Shown: positions 38,492 through 56,700 of the stretch, piece after piece
Layout of the letters: each line of letters starts with the position of its first letter
How positions within the stretch are numbered: the stretch's first letter is position 1
Source: Microbacterium sp. No. 7
GTDB taxonomy: Bacteria; Actinomycetota; Actinomycetes; Actinomycetales; Microbacteriaceae
Length of the DNA: 64,000 nt
Assembly (NCBI RefSeq): GCF_001314225.1
Contig: NZ_CP012697.1
Coordinates: 4,216,001 to 4,280,000, forward strand
Reading direction: 5' to 3'
Notes under the pieces: generated by a model
Told to the model about the DNA's origin: nothing
Databases searched by the model: none
Seen by the model: only the letters and a program-made list of their open reading frames with translations
Made by a program: the position numbers and the translations under genes

Positions 38492-38517
38492 GGGGCGTCG
38501 GTGAAAGCCGGCGCCCC
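38492..38517 (+). terminator. Hairpin terminator before the accessory operon
   Basis: GGGGCGTCGG (38492-38501) pairs with CCGGCGCCCC (38508-38517), one G-T pair, six-base loop, followed by TTCGTCGT. It insulates the operon starting at 38685 from upstream transcription. No gene is seen in the rest of 38,518-38,765 apart from the promoter. Confidence 0.75.
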
Positions 38518-38684
38518 TTCGTCGTGTTGGGGAACGCGTGTCGCCTCGGGGCCGGTGCGCGGCGGGACACAGACCTAATATGCGGCAAACTCGGGTTCGG
38601 CGCAAGGTGCCCGCCGGGCTGGCGGTGGTTGCGCCCGGTGCCGCGGGGAGGGTGGGAGAGTGGCGAGAATCTTCGGATTCCTGC

Positions 38685-38713
38685 TTGCATCGATTACACA
38701 ATGTGTGTACTAT
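38685..38713 (+). promoter_or_regulatory. Promoter of the prophage accessory operon, with internal operator
   Basis: -35 TTGCAT (38685-38690), 17-bp spacer, -10 TACTAT (38708-38713). Within the spacer and touching the -10 is the inverted repeat TACACA-ATG-TGTGTA (38695-38709). The arrangement fits a promoter that a phage or host repressor can switch off. AGGAGG follows before ATG 38766. The repressor is not identified. Confidence 0.7.
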
Positions 38714-38765
38714 GGGGGTATCGGAGGAAGCCAGAGGGCAAGCCTCACGAGACCAGGAGGTCACC

Positions 38766-39101
38766 ATGGACAGCATCACCAGCCGCATCCTCGCCGGAGA
38801 GATCGTCCTCACCAAGGACGCGACCGGGTTCGCCGCGACGGGCTTCGCTAGCAGCATCTTGAACTCGCTGACCGGGCGCCCGCGCTCGGTGGTCCGCGCG
38901 TTCAAGAAGGACGGCACGGGCGTGGACGCTCGGCCGACCGACATCATCGGGCGCACCGAGATTGATGGCCACGATGTCGTCAAGGTCGCTGTCTCCCTCG
39001 ACAACGGGCGCCGCTGCGACCACTACGAGACCGACACGCACGGCACCTGCTACGCCTGCGGCGCCTATGTCCGCGCCAGCGACGCCGGCCGGTACCTGTG
39101 A
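38766..39101 (+). CDS. Accessory phage protein, unknown (operon gene 1)
   Basis: 111 residues with a good Shine-Dalgarno (AGGAGG) and start ATG 38766. The N-terminal part reads ITSRILAGEIVLTKDATGFA. The C-terminus has HYETDTHGTCYACGAYV with one CxxC. I recognise no family. First gene after the regulated promoter; the next gene begins 19 bp later. Moderately charged, soluble, no membrane segment. Confidence 0.7.
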   Translation: MDSITSRILAGEIVLTKDATGFAATGFASSILNSLTGRPRSVVRAFKKDGTGVDARPTDIIGRTEIDGHDVVKVAVSLDNGRRCDHYETDTHGTCYACGAYVRASDAGRYL

Positions 39102-39120
39102 GCGCAGAGAGGATCACATC

Positions 39121-39507
39121 ATGACGACCATGCATGACGCCATTCAGGCCCTTGTTGATGAGGCGGGGATCACCGAGGACCGGATCCGGTGGGGTCGCCT
39201 CCACCCTGGCAGCAAGAATGTGCAGTGGCGGCTGCTGTGCCGTTCCGGCCTCAGCAAGCGCGAGATCGCCTCCCAGGCGGGCGCGCTGAGCGCGGCCGAG
39301 GCCTTCCACAGTCCTGCCGAGCTGGCTGAGCCCGACACGGTCCAGATCACCCTGACCTCGTGGCTGTCGGGGTCGGATTCGGGGTTCCCGACCATGCACC
39401 AGTGGGTGCGGTACTACGCCTCGCAGGTACCCGACGGGTATCAGCCTTGCGCGATCTACGTCGGGGATCACCCCCTGACCCGCAAGCTCCTCGCGGGTGC
39501 CGCATGA
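39121..39507 (+). CDS. Accessory phage protein, unknown (operon gene 2)
   Basis: 128 residues from ATG 39121; the preceding bases GAGAGGATCACATC supply a ribosome site. GITEDRIRWGRLHPGSKNVQ and CRSGLSKREIASQAGAL could form a short helix-turn-helix-like region. The remainder (TMHQWVRYYASQVPDG) is mixed alpha/beta. No known family. Its stop overlaps the next start (ATGA), indicating coupled translation. Confidence 0.7.
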   Translation: MTTMHDAIQALVDEAGITEDRIRWGRLHPGSKNVQWRLLCRSGLSKREIASQAGALSAAEAFHSPAELAEPDTVQITLTSWLSGSDSGFPTMHQWVRYYASQVPDGYQPCAIYVGDHPLTRKLLAGAA

Positions 39508-39899
39508 GCGGCGCGGAGTTCCGGTCGATTCTGGAGGCGTGTGCGCATGGCGACGATACTGATGCGGCGCGTGCGCTGTCGCTGTCGCGGGCGATGATCC
39601 AGAAGATGAAGGCCGGGGCCGCGCCGGTCAGTCCCGCCACGGCGGACAAGGTGCGGGCGCTGCAAGACGCGTACGCTGACGCCCGTGACGCTGCGCTGAC
39701 TGCTGCGCCCGCCAGGATCGAGGTGTGGCGGGGCGGGCAGGCCGACAACGACGCCTCGTGGGACGCGACGGGCAGGCCCGCACGGTGGCACCGGATGATC
39801 GCCGCGGAGTGCCACCAAGAGCACGGCACTCGCATCGTCTACATCGACGAGCCCTCACCCGTGCACGATCCGATGGAGCTGCTGGAGCAGGGCACATGA
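39504..39899 (+). CDS. Accessory phage protein with HTH-like N-terminus (operon gene 3)
   Basis: 131 residues. The N-terminal 55 residues (FRSILEACAHGDDTDAARAL, SLSRAMIQKMKAGAAPVSPA, then TADKVRALQDAYADAR) resemble a Cro/C1-type HTH, so DNA binding is possible. The C-terminal part (IEVWRGGQADNDASWDATG and HQEHGTRIVYIDEP) is unknown. Overlaps both neighbours by four bases. It could regulate its own operon. Confidence 0.65.
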   Translation: MSGAEFRSILEACAHGDDTDAARALSLSRAMIQKMKAGAAPVSPATADKVRALQDAYADARDAALTAAPARIEVWRGGQADNDASWDATGRPARWHRMIAAECHQEHGTRIVYIDEPSPVHDPMELLEQGT

Positions 39900-40216
39900 G
39901 CTGGAACTACCTCCAGCTGGAGGTCATCCCTGGCGACGCGCTGGTGCGCCCGCTGATCGGCCCGGGCGGGCTGAGCCGGCAAGGCGCGCATCGCGAGATC
40001 GCCGGCATCCTCCGCCGGCTCGCTGACATCCACGAGCCTGCAGTCAAGCTCGTCAAGGCGTGGCACGCGGGCGCCGTGGACGACACCGTCTTCTACGGGC
40101 CGTTCACCTGGGCGATCTACGAAGCCGACGACCCGCAGCAGGGTGCGCGGGAGTGGATCGACGGGTACATCGCCACGCTCCGCGCCCAGGGGATCGACGT
40201 CGGGGTGGCGTGGTGA
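39896..40216 (+). CDS. Accessory phage protein, unknown (operon gene 4)
   Basis: 106 residues from ATG 39896, overlapping the preceding stop. A hydrophilic alpha/beta protein: SWNYLQLEVIPGDALVRPL at the N-terminus and FTWAIYEADDPQQGAREWID near the C-terminus. No family recognised, no membrane segment. Translation is linked to genes 3 and 5. Confidence 0.65.
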   Translation: MSWNYLQLEVIPGDALVRPLIGPGGLSRQGAHREIAGILRRLADIHEPAVKLVKAWHAGAVDDTVFYGPFTWAIYEADDPQQGAREWIDGYIATLRAQGIDVGVAW

Positions 40217-40656
40217 GCGACCTGCCTGACGGGTACACGGTCCGCTACCGGCCCGCAAAAGCCCACGCGATCGGGGCACGCGACACGTGGCAGATCACCT
40301 ACCAGACCGAGGACCGGGAATGGACGGAGAAGGTCTACGCGGCAGGCGACGTGCCGACCGCGATCGCACGGCACCAGGCCGCGGGTGCACCGACGAAGCC
40401 CTCCCGCGCGTCGATCGAGGCCGCGCGTGACGCGGCGGTCGTGAAGGGCGCCGCCGAGGGCATCCCGCACTGGAAGCTCGCGCGCAGGCACGGCCTGACC
40501 GTCACCGCGGTCGGACGCATCATCGAGGCGGCGCAGCGCGAGGAGCGCAAAGCCCGCCGGCCGCGCGTCACCGAAGAGCGACGAGAGCACCCCGCCCCCG
40601 TGCGCCGGTCCTGGCCACGGCGACCGGCGACCGTGAGATTCGAGCCCGGCCCCTGA
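40213..40656 (+). CDS. Accessory phage protein with HTH-like segment (operon gene 5)
   Basis: 147 residues from GTG 40213 (GTGA overlap). The N-terminal half (YTVRYRPAKAHAIGARDTW) is beta-rich. The C-terminal half contains IPHWKLARRHGLTVTAVGRI, a clear helix-turn-helix-like segment, and a very basic tail (RKARRPRVTEERREH, RRSWPRRPA). DNA or RNA binding is likely. Immediately followed by the paired CRISPR-repeat-like hairpins. Confidence 0.65.
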   Translation: MSDLPDGYTVRYRPAKAHAIGARDTWQITYQTEDREWTEKVYAAGDVPTAIARHQAAGAPTKPSRASIEAARDAAVVKGAAEGIPHWKLARRHGLTVTAVGRIIEAAQREERKARRPRVTEERREHPAPVRRSWPRRPATVRFEPGP

Positions 40657-40666
40657 TAGCGTGACC

Positions 40667-40744
40667 GCATGCCCCGCCCCCGCGGGGATGACCCCTTCCG
40701 ACGTCGACTCGACCGGCAGGCCCCGCTTCTGCGGGGATACGCGC
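40667..40744 (+). repeat. Two tandem stem-loops shaped like type I-E CRISPR repeats
   Basis: Unit 1 is 40667-40695 and unit 2 40716-40744, with 20 bases between. Each has GCA(T/G)G, then CCCCGC-N4-GCGGGG, then AT; unit 1 continues ATGACCCC and unit 2 ATACGCGC. The 6-bp stem, 4-base loop and 8-base trailing handle are the layout of type I-E repeats, and unit 1 is close to actinobacterial versions. They are on the operon's sense strand, so transcripts would carry them in crRNA orientation. No cas gene or further unit is visible. A third, weaker GC hairpin lies at about 40,771-40,797. Confidence 0.6.
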
Positions 40745-40826
40745 CGAACCGTCCCGCTCCTTCGTCTGGAGGGCGGGGCGGTGTCGGTGTAGCGTGGCAT
40801 CCTCGGCCGGAGAAGGGAGACCGGCC

Positions 40827-41132
40827 GTGGTTGAACGATTCGAGCCCGCTGAGGTCATCATCGAACGGCGCCTGGCGACCGTCGAGGTGCATCCAGGGAT
40901 CTGCAACGTACCGGCGGGAGCATACGGACCGCAGCGGATGACATGGGCCGATACGGTCATACCCGTCTGGGCGTGGATTCCGTGGTGCCACAAGCCAATG
41001 GAGTTGCGCCCAGGCTTCGCCAAGGGGTGGAACGACCGCGTCGTGAGCCTCTACTTCGAGGATGAGGGCGGTGAACGGTACGCCACCGTGTGGCGAAGCG
41101 CCGTGCGGCTGCGGACGGTGACGCGCGACTAG
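40827..41132 (+). CDS. Accessory phage protein, unknown (after the hairpins)
   Basis: 101 residues from GTG 40827 with AAGGGAG seven to eight bases upstream. It contains FEPAEVIIERRLATVEVHPG and a Trp-rich middle (MTWADTVIPVWAWIPWCHKP), then VVSLYFEDEGGERYATVW. Soluble, probably beta-rich; no family recognised. Its stop overlaps the end of the convergent SRAP gene by four bases. Confidence 0.65.
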   Translation: MVERFEPAEVIIERRLATVEVHPGICNVPAGAYGPQRMTWADTVIPVWAWIPWCHKPMELRPGFAKGWNDRVVSLYFEDEGGERYATVWRSAVRLRTVTRD

Positions 41133-41776
41133 AACAGCGCGGCGGGCGCGGTGTCGGAGGCCTGGGGGCGGGCGATGATCGACGCGTCCAGGTCCTGCGC
41201 GGCGCCGGCGGCCGTGGCGAGAAGTTCTGCGGCGGGTGCGTCGCTGGTGAGCCACTCGTCCGCGAAACCGGGGGCCACGAGCAGCGGCATCCGGTCGTGG
41301 ACATCGGCGATGTGCTCCGCCGCGGGATGCATGACCAGCGAGTAGCAGACGTACTCGCGCCCGTCGGCGGTGTGGCCGGGGCGCGTGACGGCCGCCATGC
41401 CGAGCAGTCGGTCACCGGGGGCTGCGAGCTCGTGCCAGACCCGGGAGGGCTTCTGCATCTCCAACCAGTGCGATGCGGGGACGATCGCCCGCCCGCCGAG
41501 AGGGCGGCGGCTACGGGATAGGCGTTCGGCGCGGGAGTTGATCGATGGGAACGGGGCGACCTTGCCGTCGACGAGGTACCCCCACCATGCGAGCGTGAGA
41601 GAGCCGGGGTGCTGGATGATGGGGTTGAGGTTGCGGGCCCGGATGCCCGTCGGGCGGAGCGTCGAGCGGTTGTTCTCCTCGGCCCAGGTGCGGAGGTCGT
41701 CGAGCACCGCCCGGTCGACGGCGTCCCGCCACTCCTCGTCGGCGAAGCGGGGATCGAGTCCGTAGCTGGCGCACAT
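41129..41776 (-). CDS. SRAP (YedK/HMCES) family DNA-protein crosslink protein
   Basis: 215 residues from ATG 41776. This start, not the in-frame GTG at 41785, places the catalytic cysteine at position 2 (MCASYG), which must become N-terminal after Met removal. Other active-site residues fit YedK: Asn80-Ser-Arg-Ala-Glu in SINSRAERLS, Glu106 in ASHWLEMQ, His160 in ADVHDRMPLLV. Family members trap abasic sites in single-stranded DNA through a Cys2 thiazolidine link. In a phage this may protect replicating DNA. Divergent from the gene at 41815; convergent with the accessory operon. Confidence 0.93.
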   Translation of the reverse strand: MCASYGLDPRFADEEWRDAVDRAVLDDLRTWAEENNRSTLRPTGIRARNLNPIIQHPGSLTLAWWGYLVDGKVAPFPSINSRAERLSRSRRPLGGRAIVPASHWLEMQKPSRVWHELAAPGDRLLGMAAVTRPGHTADGREYVCYSLVMHPAAEHIADVHDRMPLLVAPGFADEWLTSDAPAAELLATAAGAAQDLDASIIARPQASDTAPAALF

Positions 41777-41814
41777 GACGGTCACGATACGCTGCTCACC
41801 GTAGGCTGTGGGGC

Positions 41815-42090
41815 ATGCTGATCGGTCGAATCCGCCCCGTCGAGATCCACGCCCTCACCCTCGAAGGGGTCGATGCGGCAGACATCCGAGCACAGGCGGA
41901 AGCCGCGACGCCAGCGGGGTGGGAGCTGGTGGCGATGCCGGTCGTGCCCGTCAAGGGCAGCCCCCGCATGTCCGCCGCGGTTGTGTTCGCGCGGCGCGAC
42001 GGGGTGAAGGACATCGAAGCGGACACCATGCCCGCCCTCGAAGCGAGGGTGCCCGAGGGGTGGGAGCTGCTTTCCGTGCAGCGCCTGTGA
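41815..42090 (+). CDS. Small phage protein, unknown
   Basis: 91 residues from ATG 41815, 38 bp from the divergent SRAP start. The sequence has two similar motifs, ATPAGWELVAMPVVPV and RVPEGWELLSVQRL, a repeated 'P-x-GWEL' pattern that suggests a DUF4177-like or Sporulation-YjcZ-like small fold; I cannot name it firmly. A strong terminator follows. Confidence 0.6.
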   Translation: MLIGRIRPVEIHALTLEGVDAADIRAQAEAATPAGWELVAMPVVPVKGSPRMSAAVVFARRDGVKDIEADTMPALEARVPEGWELLSVQRL

Positions 42091-42139
42091 GCCCGTGACT
42101 TCCGGTACAGTGGCGAAAGCCCAGATCCCCCCAATGGGC

Positions 42140-42173
42140 AACCGCCCCCAGCATCCCCCCGCTGGGGGCGGTT
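42140..42173 (+). terminator. Terminator after the accessory segment
   Basis: Perfect 13-bp stem AACCGCCCCCAGC/GCTGGGGGCGGTT with an 8-base loop, followed by CTTCGTCT. It stops plus-strand transcription before it meets the late operon. Confidence 0.85.
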
Positions 42174-42283
42174 CTTCGTCTCCCAGCCCGAACAGAGACG
42201 ACCACCAAGGCCCCCCTTGGTCGGGCAGTCTATGCCCGGAGAGTGTGGCTGTCCACGGTTCTGTGGCCCACGACACGACGAAA

Positions 42284-42325
42284 CCGCCCCCGCCCCGAGC
42301 CGTGGTGGCGTCGGGGCGGGGGCGG
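42284..42325 (-). terminator. Terminator of the late (structural) operon
   Basis: Perfect 15-bp stem CCGCCCCCGCCCCGA/TCGGGGCGGGGGCGG with a 12-base loop. On the minus strand it follows the stop at 42338 and is trailed by TTTCGTCG. Confidence 0.85.
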
Positions 42326-42337
42326 GGCTGGTCGCGG

Positions 42338-44797
42338 CTACGTGATGGGTCTCACGGACGCGGCCCACTGCTCGTAGTTGGAGGGCGAGTAGTGGGTGAC
42401 GTTGACGACGAGGGCTTGGTCGACGTTCCCGCCGGTCGGGACGATCGGCCGGAACAGTCGCCCCGCGGTGGTGGGCTGGGTCATCATGGTCTGCTCACGG
42501 TAGGGGCCGAGGTCGGTGCGGCGGAGGATCTTGACGGTCTCGGTGGTGCCGGTGGACTGTGCGGTGATGACCGTGTCGTCGACGGCAGGGTCGCAGAACG
42601 CGGGCATCGGGACGTAGTTCGACGTGGCGACGTAGCCGATGCGGGGCCCGGCGATGCCGATGTCGGTGACACGGGGTGCGGTGTCGGCGTCCGTGCCGGG
42701 GATGAGGGTCGCCGTGTTGGTCCACGTCCGGCCCTGCGGGTCGGGGTCCTGCCAGCGGCCGGCGGTCATCTGCGAGGCGATCAGCGTCCCGTCGGGCACG
42801 GACCGGTACTCGTACCGGCTGATCGACTGGGTCGCGGACGCCCCGGTGGTGGATGATCCGATCTCCAAGGGTGCGATCGAGCTTGCGAGCGGTGCGATGC
42901 CGGTGAGCGTCGCACCCAACTGCACCCACGTGTCGCCGTCGAGCGTGTAGTAGAGACGGATGTCGTCGGGAGCATGGATGTCGAGCCCGTACCCGACCGC
43001 GTCAGCGGGGAGGACGAGGGTGGATTGCACACCGCCGCCGGTGAAGTTCACGCCGGTGGCGGAGCACTGCACCTGCAGGCGCCGGTCGGTCAGCAACTGC
43101 AACTGCCAGGACCTGTTGTTGCCGTCGGTGGAGGTGCGGCGCACGAGGGTGCGTGTCGCGCCGGGGGTGCCGATCGGGGCGGCCAGCCACACCCGCACCG
43201 ACGGTGTGGTGGTCTGGAAATCGGGATGGAACGCGGCGGCGGCGTAGGAGGTGCCGGTGCTGGACAGGTCGAGCCGGTCACGGGTGAACGCGACGCCGGC
43301 GGAGACCGTCACGATCTTCTGCATCGCCTGGTTCGGGGTGGTGTTGTCCCATTCGGCGATCGCGATCCGCGGCGGGAACGGCCCCGGGGAGACGTACGAC
43401 AGGCGCCTGGAGTGGGTCGTGATGTCCGGCAGGTTCGGGATCAGGCGGGGCACGGTGCGGGTGTCGATCGGCAGCCCGGCACCGGTGAGGACGTTGCCGG
43501 TCGTCGGGGCGTGCGGAGACGTGATCGCACCGGTGACGCAGTTGAGCTCGAAGTAGAGCAACGTCATGTTCGACAGCGTATTCGGATTGTATGCGCACGC
43601 GAGGCGGATGACCTGATCGCCCGTCCCGTGCGCGTCCGCGGACGTCACGTACAACTGCAAGAACTCGGACGTGAACAGAACCTGGATGCCGAGGACGGTG
43701 ACTTCTCCGGTGACCTGGTCGACGGTGAAGCGCGCGACACGCCACGAGAACCCGATCCCCGTGTTGCCGTAGCGGGTGAGGACCCAGAAGTGATCCACGA
43801 GCGGGTTGCCGGCCGCGTCGACGGTGGACAGGTGCGCGATGTGATGCAGCTGCGCGTAGCTGACGCCGACGGTCGCCCCGCCAGTGAAGTTGATCACCAC
43901 AGGGACCGCGGCATCCGTGCGGAGGCTGGAGAGCGTGCCGTCACGGTCGGAGACCCGCAGGTGCATGTACCGGGGCGGGTCACCACCCGGGGACGTCTGC
44001 CCGTGGTTGGTCCACGCGACCACCGTGCGGTGCCCATCACGCGCCCACACCGCCGGCACGTTGTGGTCATCCTGCGTCGCGGTGCCGACCTCAACAGTCC
44101 GCACCCTCGCGTCGGTGACCTCGCTGACGATCACCGTCCCATCCGCACGCAACCCGCCCTTCACGATCCGCGGCACCGGCCGCTGCAACACCGTCGCCTG
44201 CGGGTGCACCCACCATTCGGCGGTGTCGTCGGTGATGACGGGCACGAAGTCGCCCTCGGGGCCCCGGACATGCCCGGCGGTGATCTCGGTCCCGTCATGG
44301 CGGGTCAGCACAAGCCAGTCGCCGTCGACGCGGGCGTCGGTGATCGCCTGGTCCACGACCTCGGACCACTGATCGGCGACCACGATCGGAACACCCTCCA
44401 CGGTGCCTGCGGCGATCGCCCGGTCCAGATCCAGCGCGCCCGCCCCGGTCGGGACGGGGAACGTGACCTTGCGGACGCCGATCACACGACGGGCGAGGAG
44501 GTAGGTGATCGTGGCCGTGAGGAGGTGCGTCGCCTCCCCACCGGAGATGTCGATGACCTGCTGGGTGGTCGCGTCGACCATCCCGACCATGTCCGACACG
44601 ACCGCCGTGAACGCGATCTGCCCGCCGGGTTCGGAGGTGTGGCGGAGCCCGTCGACCGTCACGATCGGCTGACCCTCCCAGATCAGCATGCGTGTCGAGG
44701 TGATATCGACTCGGCTGATCACGTCTTCCCCCTCGACGGGCAGGTACGCGGACCCGCACGTCACGACACGCTCACGAACACCATCAGGAAACGGCAC
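42338..44797 (-). CDS. Large tail-associated protein, probable receptor-binding or fibre protein
   Basis: 819 residues from GTG 44797, chosen over 44839 because GAGAGGAG lies seven bases upstream. Beta-rich sequence with many Thr, Val and Asp, no membrane segment. The C-terminal half contains a jelly-roll-like stretch (YGLDIHAPDDIRLYYTLDGD, then WVQLGATLTGIAPLASS), similar in style to concanavalin-like carbohydrate-binding modules. It is last in the late operon, beyond holin-like genes and separated by a 23-bp hairpin, a typical place for host-range genes. Role inferred from position and composition. Confidence 0.6.
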   Translation of the reverse strand: MPFPDGVRERVVTCGSAYLPVEGEDVISRVDITSTRMLIWEGQPIVTVDGLRHTSEPGGQIAFTAVVSDMVGMVDATTQQVIDISGGEATHLLTATITYLLARRVIGVRKVTFPVPTGAGALDLDRAIAAGTVEGVPIVVADQWSEVVDQAITDARVDGDWLVLTRHDGTEITAGHVRGPEGDFVPVITDDTAEWWVHPQATVLQRPVPRIVKGGLRADGTVIVSEVTDARVRTVEVGTATQDDHNVPAVWARDGHRTVVAWTNHGQTSPGGDPPRYMHLRVSDRDGTLSSLRTDAAVPVVINFTGGATVGVSYAQLHHIAHLSTVDAAGNPLVDHFWVLTRYGNTGIGFSWRVARFTVDQVTGEVTVLGIQVLFTSEFLQLYVTSADAHGTGDQVIRLACAYNPNTLSNMTLLYFELNCVTGAITSPHAPTTGNVLTGAGLPIDTRTVPRLIPNLPDITTHSRRLSYVSPGPFPPRIAIAEWDNTTPNQAMQKIVTVSAGVAFTRDRLDLSSTGTSYAAAAFHPDFQTTTPSVRVWLAAPIGTPGATRTLVRRTSTDGNNRSWQLQLLTDRRLQVQCSATGVNFTGGGVQSTLVLPADAVGYGLDIHAPDDIRLYYTLDGDTWVQLGATLTGIAPLASSIAPLEIGSSTTGASATQSISRYEYRSVPDGTLIASQMTAGRWQDPDPQGRTWTNTATLIPGTDADTAPRVTDIGIAGPRIGYVATSNYVPMPAFCDPAVDDTVITAQSTGTTETVKILRRTDLGPYREQTMMTQPTTAGRLFRPIVPTGGNVDQALVVNVTHYSPSNYEQWAASVRPIT

Positions 44798-53733: not shown

Positions 53734-56700
53734 CGTGCAGCACCCCCGTAGACGCTTGGAGCAGAGGAACGAGCGACCGCGGACCGGGAACCGAGAACAA
53801 CACCAGGGATGACGCCCTTCGCGACGTACTCGCCGATGATGCGGGCGAACTCCTCCTTGTCGGCTGGCGACCAACCGCTATCGCTGGTGCTCGTGGGGAG
53901 AACGGTCGCGAGACGGGACCGTTCTGCCGGAGACAGTGACACGAGCTTCGTCATCGCCGCTTGCACGGCACGCCGGGAATCCTCGATACCAGCGGACCAC
54001 TGGTCGCCGACGGCCTGACCCGACATGCGGAGACGCCGCCACCCAGACCCCGACAGGGGGCCCCACTTCGCGGGAGAGTTCGGGAATGCGCCCAGAGCGC
54101 GCTGGACCACGCGGACTACGGCCGCGCCGACCTCACCGATCATGCTGTCGATGCCGTCGATGAACCCGCGAATAATCGCCTTGCCGGAACTGACGAGCCA
54201 ATCTCCGGCGCCCGAGAAGAATCCCTGAATCTGGCCCGGAAGGTTCGTGAACCAAGTCGTGACTTCCACGAACTTCGTGACGATGCCGGTCTTCAGCCCC
54301 TCGATGATCTTCGGGCCCTCGTTGACAAGCCATGAGACGGCCGTGACGAAGTAGTTGCGGATCTCGTTGGGTAGGTTGATGAACCACGTCGTGATCTCGA
54401 TGAACTTCGTGATGATGCCGTTCTTCATGCCATCGATGACCCTTTGACCGCCGTCGATGAGCCAGATGGCTGCGTCCGCGAAGTAGTTCGCAATCACACC
54501 AGGACGCTCGAGGAACCAGTCTTGGATTGTCAGGAACGCCGTTGTGATGCCATTCCCCAAACCTTCCATGATCTTCGGGCCTTCGTTAACAAGCCATGTC
54601 GCGGCATCGACGAAGAACCCACGGATGTTGTCCGGTAGCTCCTCAAAGAACTTGCGGATGTTCTTAAATGTTTCTCCGAAGAAGATCTGCACAACCTCGC
54701 CGGACAATCTGGCTTGCTCTCCAATGTCAACGAGCATCGTTGCAGCCAGGTTTCCTTTCTCGGATAGTTCCTCGAAGTAGTCGCGCATGCCTTCGTAGTA
54801 GAGAGGAATCTTCCCGGTCATGAAATCCTGCGATATGTTCCCGGACCCGGCGGTGAAGTTGACGAGCGCACCCACCGCGCTGATGAGGTCGCCGAGGAAC
54901 GGCGTGACGGCGACGAGCGCGTCTGCGAGATTCTGAAATGCGTCCCGCAAGGCGGGCGTCACTGCGCGCGCGAAATCTTCGATCGCTGGAGCGAGGATGT
55001 CTGACACTTCTGAGAGCGCGTCTGACATGTCCCCGAGGATGTCCTCGACCCCGTCAATGACGATGTCGATGGCGGGCATGAGGTCCGCGAGTACCTCGGC
55101 GGCGGCGGGCAGGGCGGTCTCCACGAGCCGACCCAGCAGGCTCAGGAAGTTCCCGAACGTGTCCGCGATGGGCTGTAGAGACGGCTTGATCCGTTCGAGC
55201 GCGTTGGTCAGCCCACGGGAGAAGTCGTTGAGACCTTGGGCGACGACGGGCGAGTTCAGGGCGTTCGCGGATGCTTCAAGCAGCCCGCCGAGGAACCGGC
55301 CGGACGAGGCGATGAACCGTTCGACGGCGGCATACTGGTCTGCGATGAGCTGCCCAACGGCCTGCACACCGTCACCGAGGGCTTTCATCGCGTCCCCGGA
55401 GCCCTTGAAGATCGCAACGAGTGCACGCTGGAACGACGCGGACTTGACGGTCTTCTCCCATGTGAGCATGAGGTCGGCGAAGCCCCGCAACCCACCAGAC
55501 CCGGCAGCATCCGCGGCCCTCCACAGGCCTTCGAAGACCCCGGCGACGCCCTTCGTCGCGTCCCACAGGTCGTACATGGAGTCGATCGCGTCTTCCATCC
55601 ACCTTGACAGGCGCCCGTCGGTGGCGATCGCTTTCAACCAGTTGTCGAACGTGTCGGCCTGTCGGACGAACCATGCCGCGAGGCGGGGCGTGTAGGTCGC
55701 GGCGATCTGCGACAGCGACACGATCGCGCCAGCGAACGCGTCCGCACCGGTCGCGAGGACACGCCACCCGTCCGCGATGCCCTTGAAGATGGACTCGAGG
55801 CGCCCGTTCGACAGTTCCCGGAGGAACGAGTCGGACAGCGCGCCGGTGAAGTCCCCCACTCCGGCGGCGAGGTCGCGGAACGAGTTCCGCAGTTGCGGCA
55901 TGAGCCCGTTGACGAGGTCGAGGATGGGCTGCCGGGCCCGCCCCCAGAACTCGGCGTTGATGATGTCGCCAAGTTCGCGCATGTGATCGCCGAGAGGTTC
56001 GAGCTGTTCGTTCGCCTTGCGGAGCGCGACGAACAACGCGATCGCGGACCCGACCGCGTTGAGGAGCAGGCCGGGGAGGACGAGCGCGGCGGGCAGGATC
56101 TGGAACAGCCCGTTGCCGATACCCACGATCCCCGACACGGATGCGGACAGCGCCGCGAACAGGGTCGTCAGCCCGGTCGTCCACCCGAGGATCGACGGGA
56201 GGTTCTTGTCAAGGTCGCGGGCAAGGTCGGCGAGGTTGTCGATCCACTTCCACGCCAGCCGTGCACCCGACAGCGCCGCGAGGGTCGCCGCGGCCTTCGT
56301 GAGGGATGCCTGGTTGATGCGGACGAAGATCTCCACCCACCGGGGGCGGGTGAGGTTCCGCAGCCGCGCGGACGCGATAGCTGTGGTGACCCCGGCGGCG
56401 ATGTTGACCTTGTTGCGGGACGCCTGGTCAACCATCCGCTTCACTTCATGCTGGAAGTGCTCCTTGTTCTTGATCGCCGCTTCGATGTTCACGGCGATGT
56501 TCTCGAACTTGTCGAACTCAGCCTGAATGGACTTCCGCAACGCGGTCTTCTTCAGCTTCGCCTTGTCGACGGTGACCTTGATGTTCGCGTCAAGGGTCAC
56601 GTCGCGGAGCGCCGCGAGTTGCCGTTCAATACTCGCTTTCACGGCCCGCTGGTCGACGTTCACCCCATCGACACGCACTTTCATGCTTGTCGTGCGGGCA

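Follow-up and report, generated by a model that had tools for sequence, protein, structure and literature searches.

Paired type I-E repeat mimics at 49-bp period in a Microbacterium prophage, a candidate short-format mini-array

The paired units and their prophage setting

The window, i.e. the whole stretch of 64,000 nucleotides of Microbacterium sp. No. 7 analysed here, carries at 40667-40744 two stem-loops resembling type I-E CRISPR repeats. They occupy an accessory slot of a prophage (prophage A), with a rightward operon on one side and leftward tail and lysis genes on the other. The features of the locus are the following.

40213..40656, + strand: last gene of the rightward accessory operon, 147 aa (ORF)
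40657..40662, + strand: putative -10 element TAGCGT, 4 nt ahead of unit 1 (by eye)
40667..40695, + strand: repeat-mimic unit 1, GCATG-CCCCGC-CCCC-GCGGGG-ATGACCCC
40688..40736, + strand: predicted 49-nt RNA after Cas6e cleavage at both stem bases (8-nt handle, 20-nt guide, 21-nt 3' part)
40696..40715, + strand: 20-nt guide (short spacer) TTCCGACGTCGACTCGACCG, between both units
40716..40744, + strand: repeat-mimic unit 2, GCAGG-CCCCGC-TTCT-GCGGGG-ATACGCGC
40741..40790, + strand: long predicted hairpin without a U-run, a possible transcript end (predicted fold of 40663-40790)
40827..41132, + strand: next gene, about 101 aa (ORF; no Pfam or PHROG match)
41129..41785, - strand: gene of the accessory block encoding an SRAP (SOS response associated peptidase) protein (PF02586, E 7.4e-12)

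The ends of the predicted RNA follow from the usual type I-E cleavage site, the base of the stem. An ORF starting at 40669 (MPRPRGD...) was rejected as a gene, since conservation in prophage B, a second prophage copy of the locus, ends with the hairpin. The 147-aa gene has no Pfam or PHROG match; it is kept in prophage B, within an 1831-bp match of 96% DNA identity, and in a third relative, L040, with 84% protein identity. The TAGCGT hexamer ahead of unit 1 recurs in prophage B (L005 1799-1804), and the consensus promoter scan reported no promoter ahead of unit 1. Another TAGCGT, at 40790-40795, may by eye be the -10 element of the gene at 40827..41132. The long hairpin at 40741..40790 was not reported by the terminator scan. 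Slightly downstream, the segment 40777-40826 is alike in genus genomes including G141, G010, G099, G007, G036, and G214 (81-92% over 36-48 bp), and TGTCGGTG within it resembles an actinobacterial DNA-damage promoter motif, which we take to be of the PafBC type.

Both stem-loops match CCCCGCN4GCGGGGAT exactly, at 40672-40689 and 40721-40738, both on the + strand, and they are the only two such sites in the window. This confirms the pairing, the 49-bp distance and the 20-nt gap described in the sequence-only reading. Allowing one mismatch yields the same two sites, against an expectation of 0.17 from dinucleotide shuffles, and two or more sites were reached in 2 of 100 shuffles. In the genome of 4.83 Mb there are four exact sites, namely the window pair, the same place in prophage B (C1:2308313), and one inside the host's own CRISPR array (C1:186062).

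The handle of unit 1, ATGACCCC, is identical to that of the host repeat, ATGATCCC, at seven of eight positions, and the handle of unit 2, ATACGCGC, at four of eight. Compared by hand with the host array repeat having a 4-nt loop, unit 1 is identical at 22 of 29 positions overall and at 14 of 15 across the 3' half; for orientation, SRUFinder asks for 90% or higher identity to a known CRISPR repeat along no less than half its length. The 5' flanks, GCATG and GCAGG, differ from each other and from the GTGCT of the host repeat. The matching 5' context and handle claimed earlier for the two units therefore hold only in part. What the earlier reading called the absence of a real spacer is more accurately described as a spacer of 20 nt, which, with a unit length of 29 nt, gives the period of 49 bp and is 12 nt shorter than the host's 32-nt spacers. 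The pair departs from a CRISPR array in that the units differ, the spacer has 20 nt, and Cas6e is absent nearby.

The accessory prophage position proposed for the units is supported by minor tail and endolysin PHROGs found near them, so they lie on a mobile element, as Racr units do. In prophage B, the DNA match to prophage A ends in the first stem-loop, and a single unit, located between convergent genes, consists of the 5' half of unit 1 joined to the 3' half of unit 2, as recombination between the units would give. L040 has the upstream gene and no unit. Hence, conservation among close relatives is limited, with a lone unit in prophage B and none in L040, and no further units of this kind were found in the scanned stretches of prophages A and B. 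A search for relatives by the upstream protein gave none among 380 pattern stretches from genome_contigs and two among 31 from viral_contigs, these being prophage A itself and L040. When the 2.4 kb surrounding the units were compared with phages by BLAST, no match appeared.

The host type I-E system and its spacers

The host genome contains a complete type I-E locus at C1:170-189 kb, with Cas1, Cas2, Cas3, Cas6e, Cas7e, Cse2, and Cse1/Cas8e identified by Pfam and Cas5e as an ORF in the Cas5e position. The CRISPR array comprises 24 repeats GTGCTCCCCGCTATGCGGGGATGATCCC and 23 spacers of 32-33 nt. This repeat does resemble the units; absence of such a repeat from the host group had been named as grounds for abandoning the idea of type I-E mimicry, which is instead supported. 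The host thus carries the CRISPR subtype that the units imitate, as expected of a Racr. The only Cas6e match in the genome (C1:175581-176258) lies inside the complete operon of this locus, about 4.1 Mb from the units (C1:4256.7 kb) on the 4.6 Mb contig, or 0.52 Mb if the contig is circular; the claim that no cas genes accompany the units therefore holds as far as Cas6e is concerned, which alone among the cas families was searched for in the whole genome. Such systems are rare in the genus, as Cas6e exceeds the cut-off in 8 of 366 genomes, with a ninth below it. Between cas3 and the CRISPR array there is a Mutator-family transposase (L008 14603-15847) with repeat-like remnants seen by eye on both sides.

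Two host spacers nearly match DNA close to the two prophage copies. In two searched regions of about 104 and 100 kb around prophages A and B, spacer 14 matches prophage A at 30 of 32 positions (a protospacer-like site at window 54826..54857, + strand, 5' flank AAA, mismatches at positions 8 and 9), approximately 14 kb from the window units. Spacer 20 matches at 31 of 32 positions at C1:2328364 (flank AAC, mismatch at position 4), approximately 20 kb from the prophage B unit. The best matches of spacers 15 and 19 in these regions were 26 of 33 and 25 of 32, respectively, while the best of the 23 spacers in a reversed-spacer control reached 23 of 32-33. As the mismatches fall in seed positions and the flank of the spacer 14 site is AAA rather than AAC, the prophages may escape without an inhibitor; judging from these sites, the lysogen may not need one against its own type I-E system.

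Short-format pairs in phages and beside cas genes

The spacing was counted in IMG/VR stretches with a hairpin followed by the CRISPR-like handle ATGANCC, chosen irrespective of spacing. Among 114 such stretches, the nearest neighbouring hairpin was at 60-62 nt in 67, at 49-50 in 13, at 51-59 in nine, and at 29-48 in four; in the remaining 21 there was no neighbour within 20-90 nt. A scan allowing all spacings of 29-59 evenly produced 66 pairs in 52 stretches, 64 of them distinct from one another, and 41 of these 64 were spaced at 49 or 50. After clustering (at most eight mismatches), 36 of 58 pair clusters had this spacing, with a uniform-bin probability of about 2e-28. The window's own IMG/VR record, L129, is counted among the 49-50 pairs. 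The 49-50 nt period equals the normal repeat-spacer unit (61) minus about 12 nt. In genome_contigs, we counted at least 85 pairs among the matches listed, including at least 13 at 49, at least 10 at 50, and at least 27 at 58-59. The concern that related phages might conserve only a generic GC hairpin is not borne out by these data, since what other phages show is I-E-like hairpins at the 49-50 nt period.

Cas6e was found in 14 of 20 genomes with pairs spaced 48-51, which are not independent, as several of the pairs lie at cas loci themselves. Of 366 genus genomes, two have pairs spaced 47-51, the window host (G000) and G296, both with Cas6e. In the family, they occur in 3 of 398 genomes (G000, G405, and G649), and Cas6e in 21 of 398; G405 has a pair and no Cas6e match.

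Hairpin pairs in opposite orientation had spread-out spacings, and many looked REP-like by eye. Such inverted pairs have GTCAT ahead of the hairpins and ATGAC behind them and can pass for type I-E repeats, a trap for scans of this kind; by eye, they are present in L166, L168, L171, L181, L192, L197, L199, L208, L212, L219, L224, and L226. An apparent series of spacings in steps of six (36, 43, 49, 55) was dropped, as most pairs at 55 were, by eye, of this inverted kind, and only the 49-50 peak was kept. In L050, L074, L130, L252, and L258, pairs spaced at 49-50 enclose an additional hairpin with changing stem letters (CTTCTG..CAGAGG in L050), so that the DNA between their units looks like structured RNA rather than guides. 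In three Streptomyces arrays (L367, L368, and L371), native-looking type I-E arrays have a 20-21 nt spacer between near-identical repeats.

CreR has a similar layout, two degenerate repeats flanking a short guide, and we found such guides beside cas genes. The window host has one of its own upstream of cas8e, where degenerate repeats surround ATGTGACCTGCCGAACGGGC (L008 minus strand, about C1:180700-180810); it matches AAC-ATGTGACCTGTGGAGCGGGC before cas8e at 17 of 20 positions with PAM AAC. A second host guide, TCCCTCTTATACGGGGCATC, lies after cas2 at a spacing of 61 (L008 minus strand, about C1:174100-174270) and matches AAC-TCCCTCTTATATGGGGTTTC, 61 nt downstream, at 17 of 20. The G296 pair is upstream of cas3, and its 20-nt guide matches a target 81 nt downstream at 16 of 20 with PAM AAC. 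Further cas-proximal guides with a seed match and an AA-type PAM are found in G004 (15/20), G063 (17/20), Pantoea (17/20), Pluralibacter (17/20), Bordetella (14/20), an Actinomycetaceae MAG (15/20), and an alphaproteobacterium (15/20); the cas-linked pairs of L367, L368, L371, L312, and L316 gave no such match.

Overall, 35 cas loci gave 13 guide-plus-PAM hits, compared to 0-2 per round with shuffled guides. By eye, five of the hits were set aside as array or chance matches (L391, L372 twice, L374, and L400), which left eight in seven loci, two of the eight not at 49-50 spacing. The cas-proximal guides at this spacing fit the function of CreR as described (PMC12737573).

Some phage arrays also carry guides that match cas loci. 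One of them belongs to a prophage of G649, a type I-E host of a related genus; the prophage has integrase, virion, and minor tail PHROGs. The position of the array is similar to that of the window pair: it is preceded by a gene with an HTH match and one small gene, leftward genes lie beyond it, and a strong hairpin follows it. The first 11 nt of the array's third guide, GTTTGACACAGCAGGGATCA, are shared with the host's CreR-like guide, GTTTGACACAGAAAGCAGTA, which was found by hand outside the hits of the 35-locus script. The phage guide matches AAC-GTTTGTCACAG just before the cas8e start, differing within the first 11 nt at position 6 alone, although over all 20 nt only 13 positions match. A relaxed pattern had five hits in the G649 genome: the two guides account for two of them, and another two have AAC, among these the cas promoter. 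The second case includes L289, a Pantoea prophage of lambdoid type with Q, RusA, DnaB, and repressor PHROGs, and L203, a phage (connector PHROG), whose guides match a Pantoea cas-locus site at 18 of 20 positions with PAM AAG, where Pantoea's own guide matches at 17 of 20. The named-phage collection contained no match to the L203 or G649 arrays. As far as sequence goes, support for phage guides aimed at cas genes is confined to G649, L289, and L203.

For the window guide TTCCGACGTCGACTCGACCG, the only site in its own genome with at most three mismatches over a 21-mer is the guide itself. A match of seed and AA-type PAM was absent from the eight type I-E loci of the genus, including that of its own host. 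The 15 family loci, sampled from the 19 other Cas6e genomes with the second Cas6e loci of three genomes left out, contained no cas-promoter target for it and yielded two weak AA-PAM seed hits of 12/20, at sites not shown to be promoters. The guide thus has no PAM-plus-seed match in a cas promoter of its own host or in the other 22 of the 23 type I-E loci searched, some of which end at contig ends. A looser own-genome pattern had 148 hits driven by GC content and was discarded, as were nine hits to PAM and seed with one mismatch, all copies of one repeated element (G000 C1, C2, and C3; AAC-CTCCGGCGTCGA, mismatch at position 1) and probably due to chance. For 69 guides compared with 34 cas loci, there were 142 matches against 120 with shuffled guides, which is near chance and leaves the majority of phage guides with no target, most guides being tested against non-host loci.

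A mini-array that may divert Cascade

We consider it rather probable that the prophage encodes, with the window pair, a short-format type I-E mini-array that takes host Cascade from immune crRNAs. The + strand of the pair would be transcribed as part of the accessory operon, perhaps with the help of a promoter just ahead of unit 1. Host Cas6e would cut the base of each stem-loop, and the product would be a crRNA-like RNA of 49 nt, with a handle of 8 nt, a guide of 20 nt, and a stem at the 3' end. Host Cas7, Cas5e, and Cas8e would then assemble on it into a shortened Cascade, with about four Cas7 subunits instead of six, and, as Cascade would be diverted from the host's immune crRNAs, the prophage would be protected.

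The expected subunit number comes from type I-F1, where spacer length is described as 6N-4 and truncated complexes bind while Cas2/3 is not triggered (PMC7296934); by this rule, a 20-nt guide would therefore correspond to four Cas7. The same source reports that type I-E complexes whose spacers are shorter by 6 or 12 retain Cas3 degradation, which becomes markedly slower (PMC7296934), so short guides are not simply inert. In an archaeon with a type I-B system, spacers of 20-24 nt are reported to cause no primed adaptation and to repress the target gene, with 20 nt weaker than 21-24 (PMC10989794). Titration, guided repression, or a combination of the two are thus conceivable modes of action for a short mini-array, and the two possibilities, taken as separate readings, split the mini-array claim between them.

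According to the first, the units bind just Cas6e and Cas7 and form dead subcomplexes, the guide sequence being irrelevant, as in Racr. RacrIF1 is described to compete for Cas6 and Cas7, and in type I-F a non-targeting crRNA likewise lowers interference (PMC10651486). The retention of a single unit in prophage B and the absence of a target for the window guide from its own genome and the 23 loci fit this reading, and in this class the DNA between the units has a slightly stronger predicted fold than shuffled versions of it (mean z -0.60, n=61; window -1.23). Still, such a decoy has no obvious need of a fixed 49-50 nt period. Moreover, guides within one array are more alike than guides of different arrays, with 4.0 vs 2.2 identical positions in the first 8 nt and 4.7 vs 3.2 in the last 12 nt (18 pairs), which speaks against an irrelevant guide, though tandem duplication may explain this. 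In RacrIF1, the product upstream of the cut is said to matter and the 5' handle to be largely dispensable (PMC10651486); the well-kept handle of unit 1 would fit Cascade loading better than a pure decoy. We regard the decoy as possible, if somewhat doubtful.

The Racr interpretation of the sequence-only reading is borne out in part. Like the units of Camara-Wilpert 2023 (PMC10651486), the window pair is prophage-borne and intergenic, has no adjacent cas genes, mimics a repeat of the host subtype, and has a cognate host. Beyond being two solitary units, however, the pair, at 49 bp, has the layout of a short guide RNA and would give a handle-guide-stem product. The published Racr finder drops any unit that has a similar one within 100 bp (PMC10651486); by this definition the window pair is not solitary, the prophage B copy is, and closely paired phage units would escape the survey.

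According to the second reading, the 20-nt guide sends Cascade to the cas promoter of an unsampled host lineage and thereby lowers cas transcription rather than merely titrating Cascade. Such guided repression, and not passive titration alone, has to be considered because several of the 49-50 nt chromosomal pairs are CreR-like and the G649 array shares the seed of its host's CreR-like guide. The window pair has the format common to cas-proximal guides, 49-50 spacing being that of most of them here, and the 18/20 matches of the L289 and L203 guides also favor this reading. On the other hand, the pair differs from CreR in lying in a prophage far from cas, its guide matches no cas promoter in the 23 loci, the G649 promoter match drops to 13 over 20 nt, and the single unit of prophage B leaves no complete guide. 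For the window pair itself we consider guided repression rather unlikely.

The Shmakov 2023 abstract reportedly predicts phage mini-arrays that inhibit effector expression. The window pair is similar to them in phage location and layout, and L289, L203, and, by seed, G649 fit them; it differs in that no target was found for its guide in the 23 loci. As Racr and CreR are already known, the pair can be seen as a variant that is not solitary like the former, has neither the cas-locus position nor the target of the latter, and may work like either. A search of the open literature, limited to open papers, did not find the tandem short format.

The main rival of the mini-array as a whole is that the units are ordinary transcription terminators or GC hairpins at the end of an operon. 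Indeed, they stand at the end of the rightward operon, the genes around the prophage B unit are convergent, the promoter scan found nothing here, and 6-bp GC stems with 4-nt loops are generic. However, there is no U-run, and a terminator scan of 38500-42400 reported none at the units. The scarcity of the motif, with four exact sites in 4.83 Mb and one of them within a CRISPR array, also argues against it, and the handle of unit 1, the 49-bp spacing, and the presence of a cognate host (2% of the genus) would all have to be coincidence. We find this explanation unlikely.

It is highly improbable that the guide is aimed at a competing phage: virus-borne mini-arrays of inter-virus conflict, with few repeats and no viral cas genes, have been described (Medvedeva 2019, per PMC11656645), and 40682-40718 weakly matches Microbacterium phages (best E 2e-3), but the arrays in that account use host-identical repeats, which would be expected here too, and spacers against related viruses, whereas the window has a 20-nt spacer with no viral target found, and the phage match is unlike a protospacer, as it is part of a coding gene, extends across the repeat handle, and aligns with the guide only when a gap is allowed.

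Returning to the mini-array, we tentatively suggest a broader interpretation. Actinobacterial and other phages may share a fixed type I-E guide format, with a 49-50 nt period and a guide of about 20 nt, 12 nt below normal or two Cas7 steps, by copying or converging on the cas-repressing guides of hosts and turning Cascade on its own cas promoter; the window pair would be a member aimed at an unsampled host lineage. The period common to phage arrays and cas-proximal guides is a simple search rule and links phage counter-defence to CreR autoregulation. It is testable whether phages defeat CRISPR by guiding Cascade onto cas, as opposed to acting by a decoy alone. In L098, L087, and L404, neighbouring guides of one phage array are alike in their first 6-7 nt and in 6-8 of the final 12; several guides may be aimed at a single target, or the likeness may come from tandem duplication.
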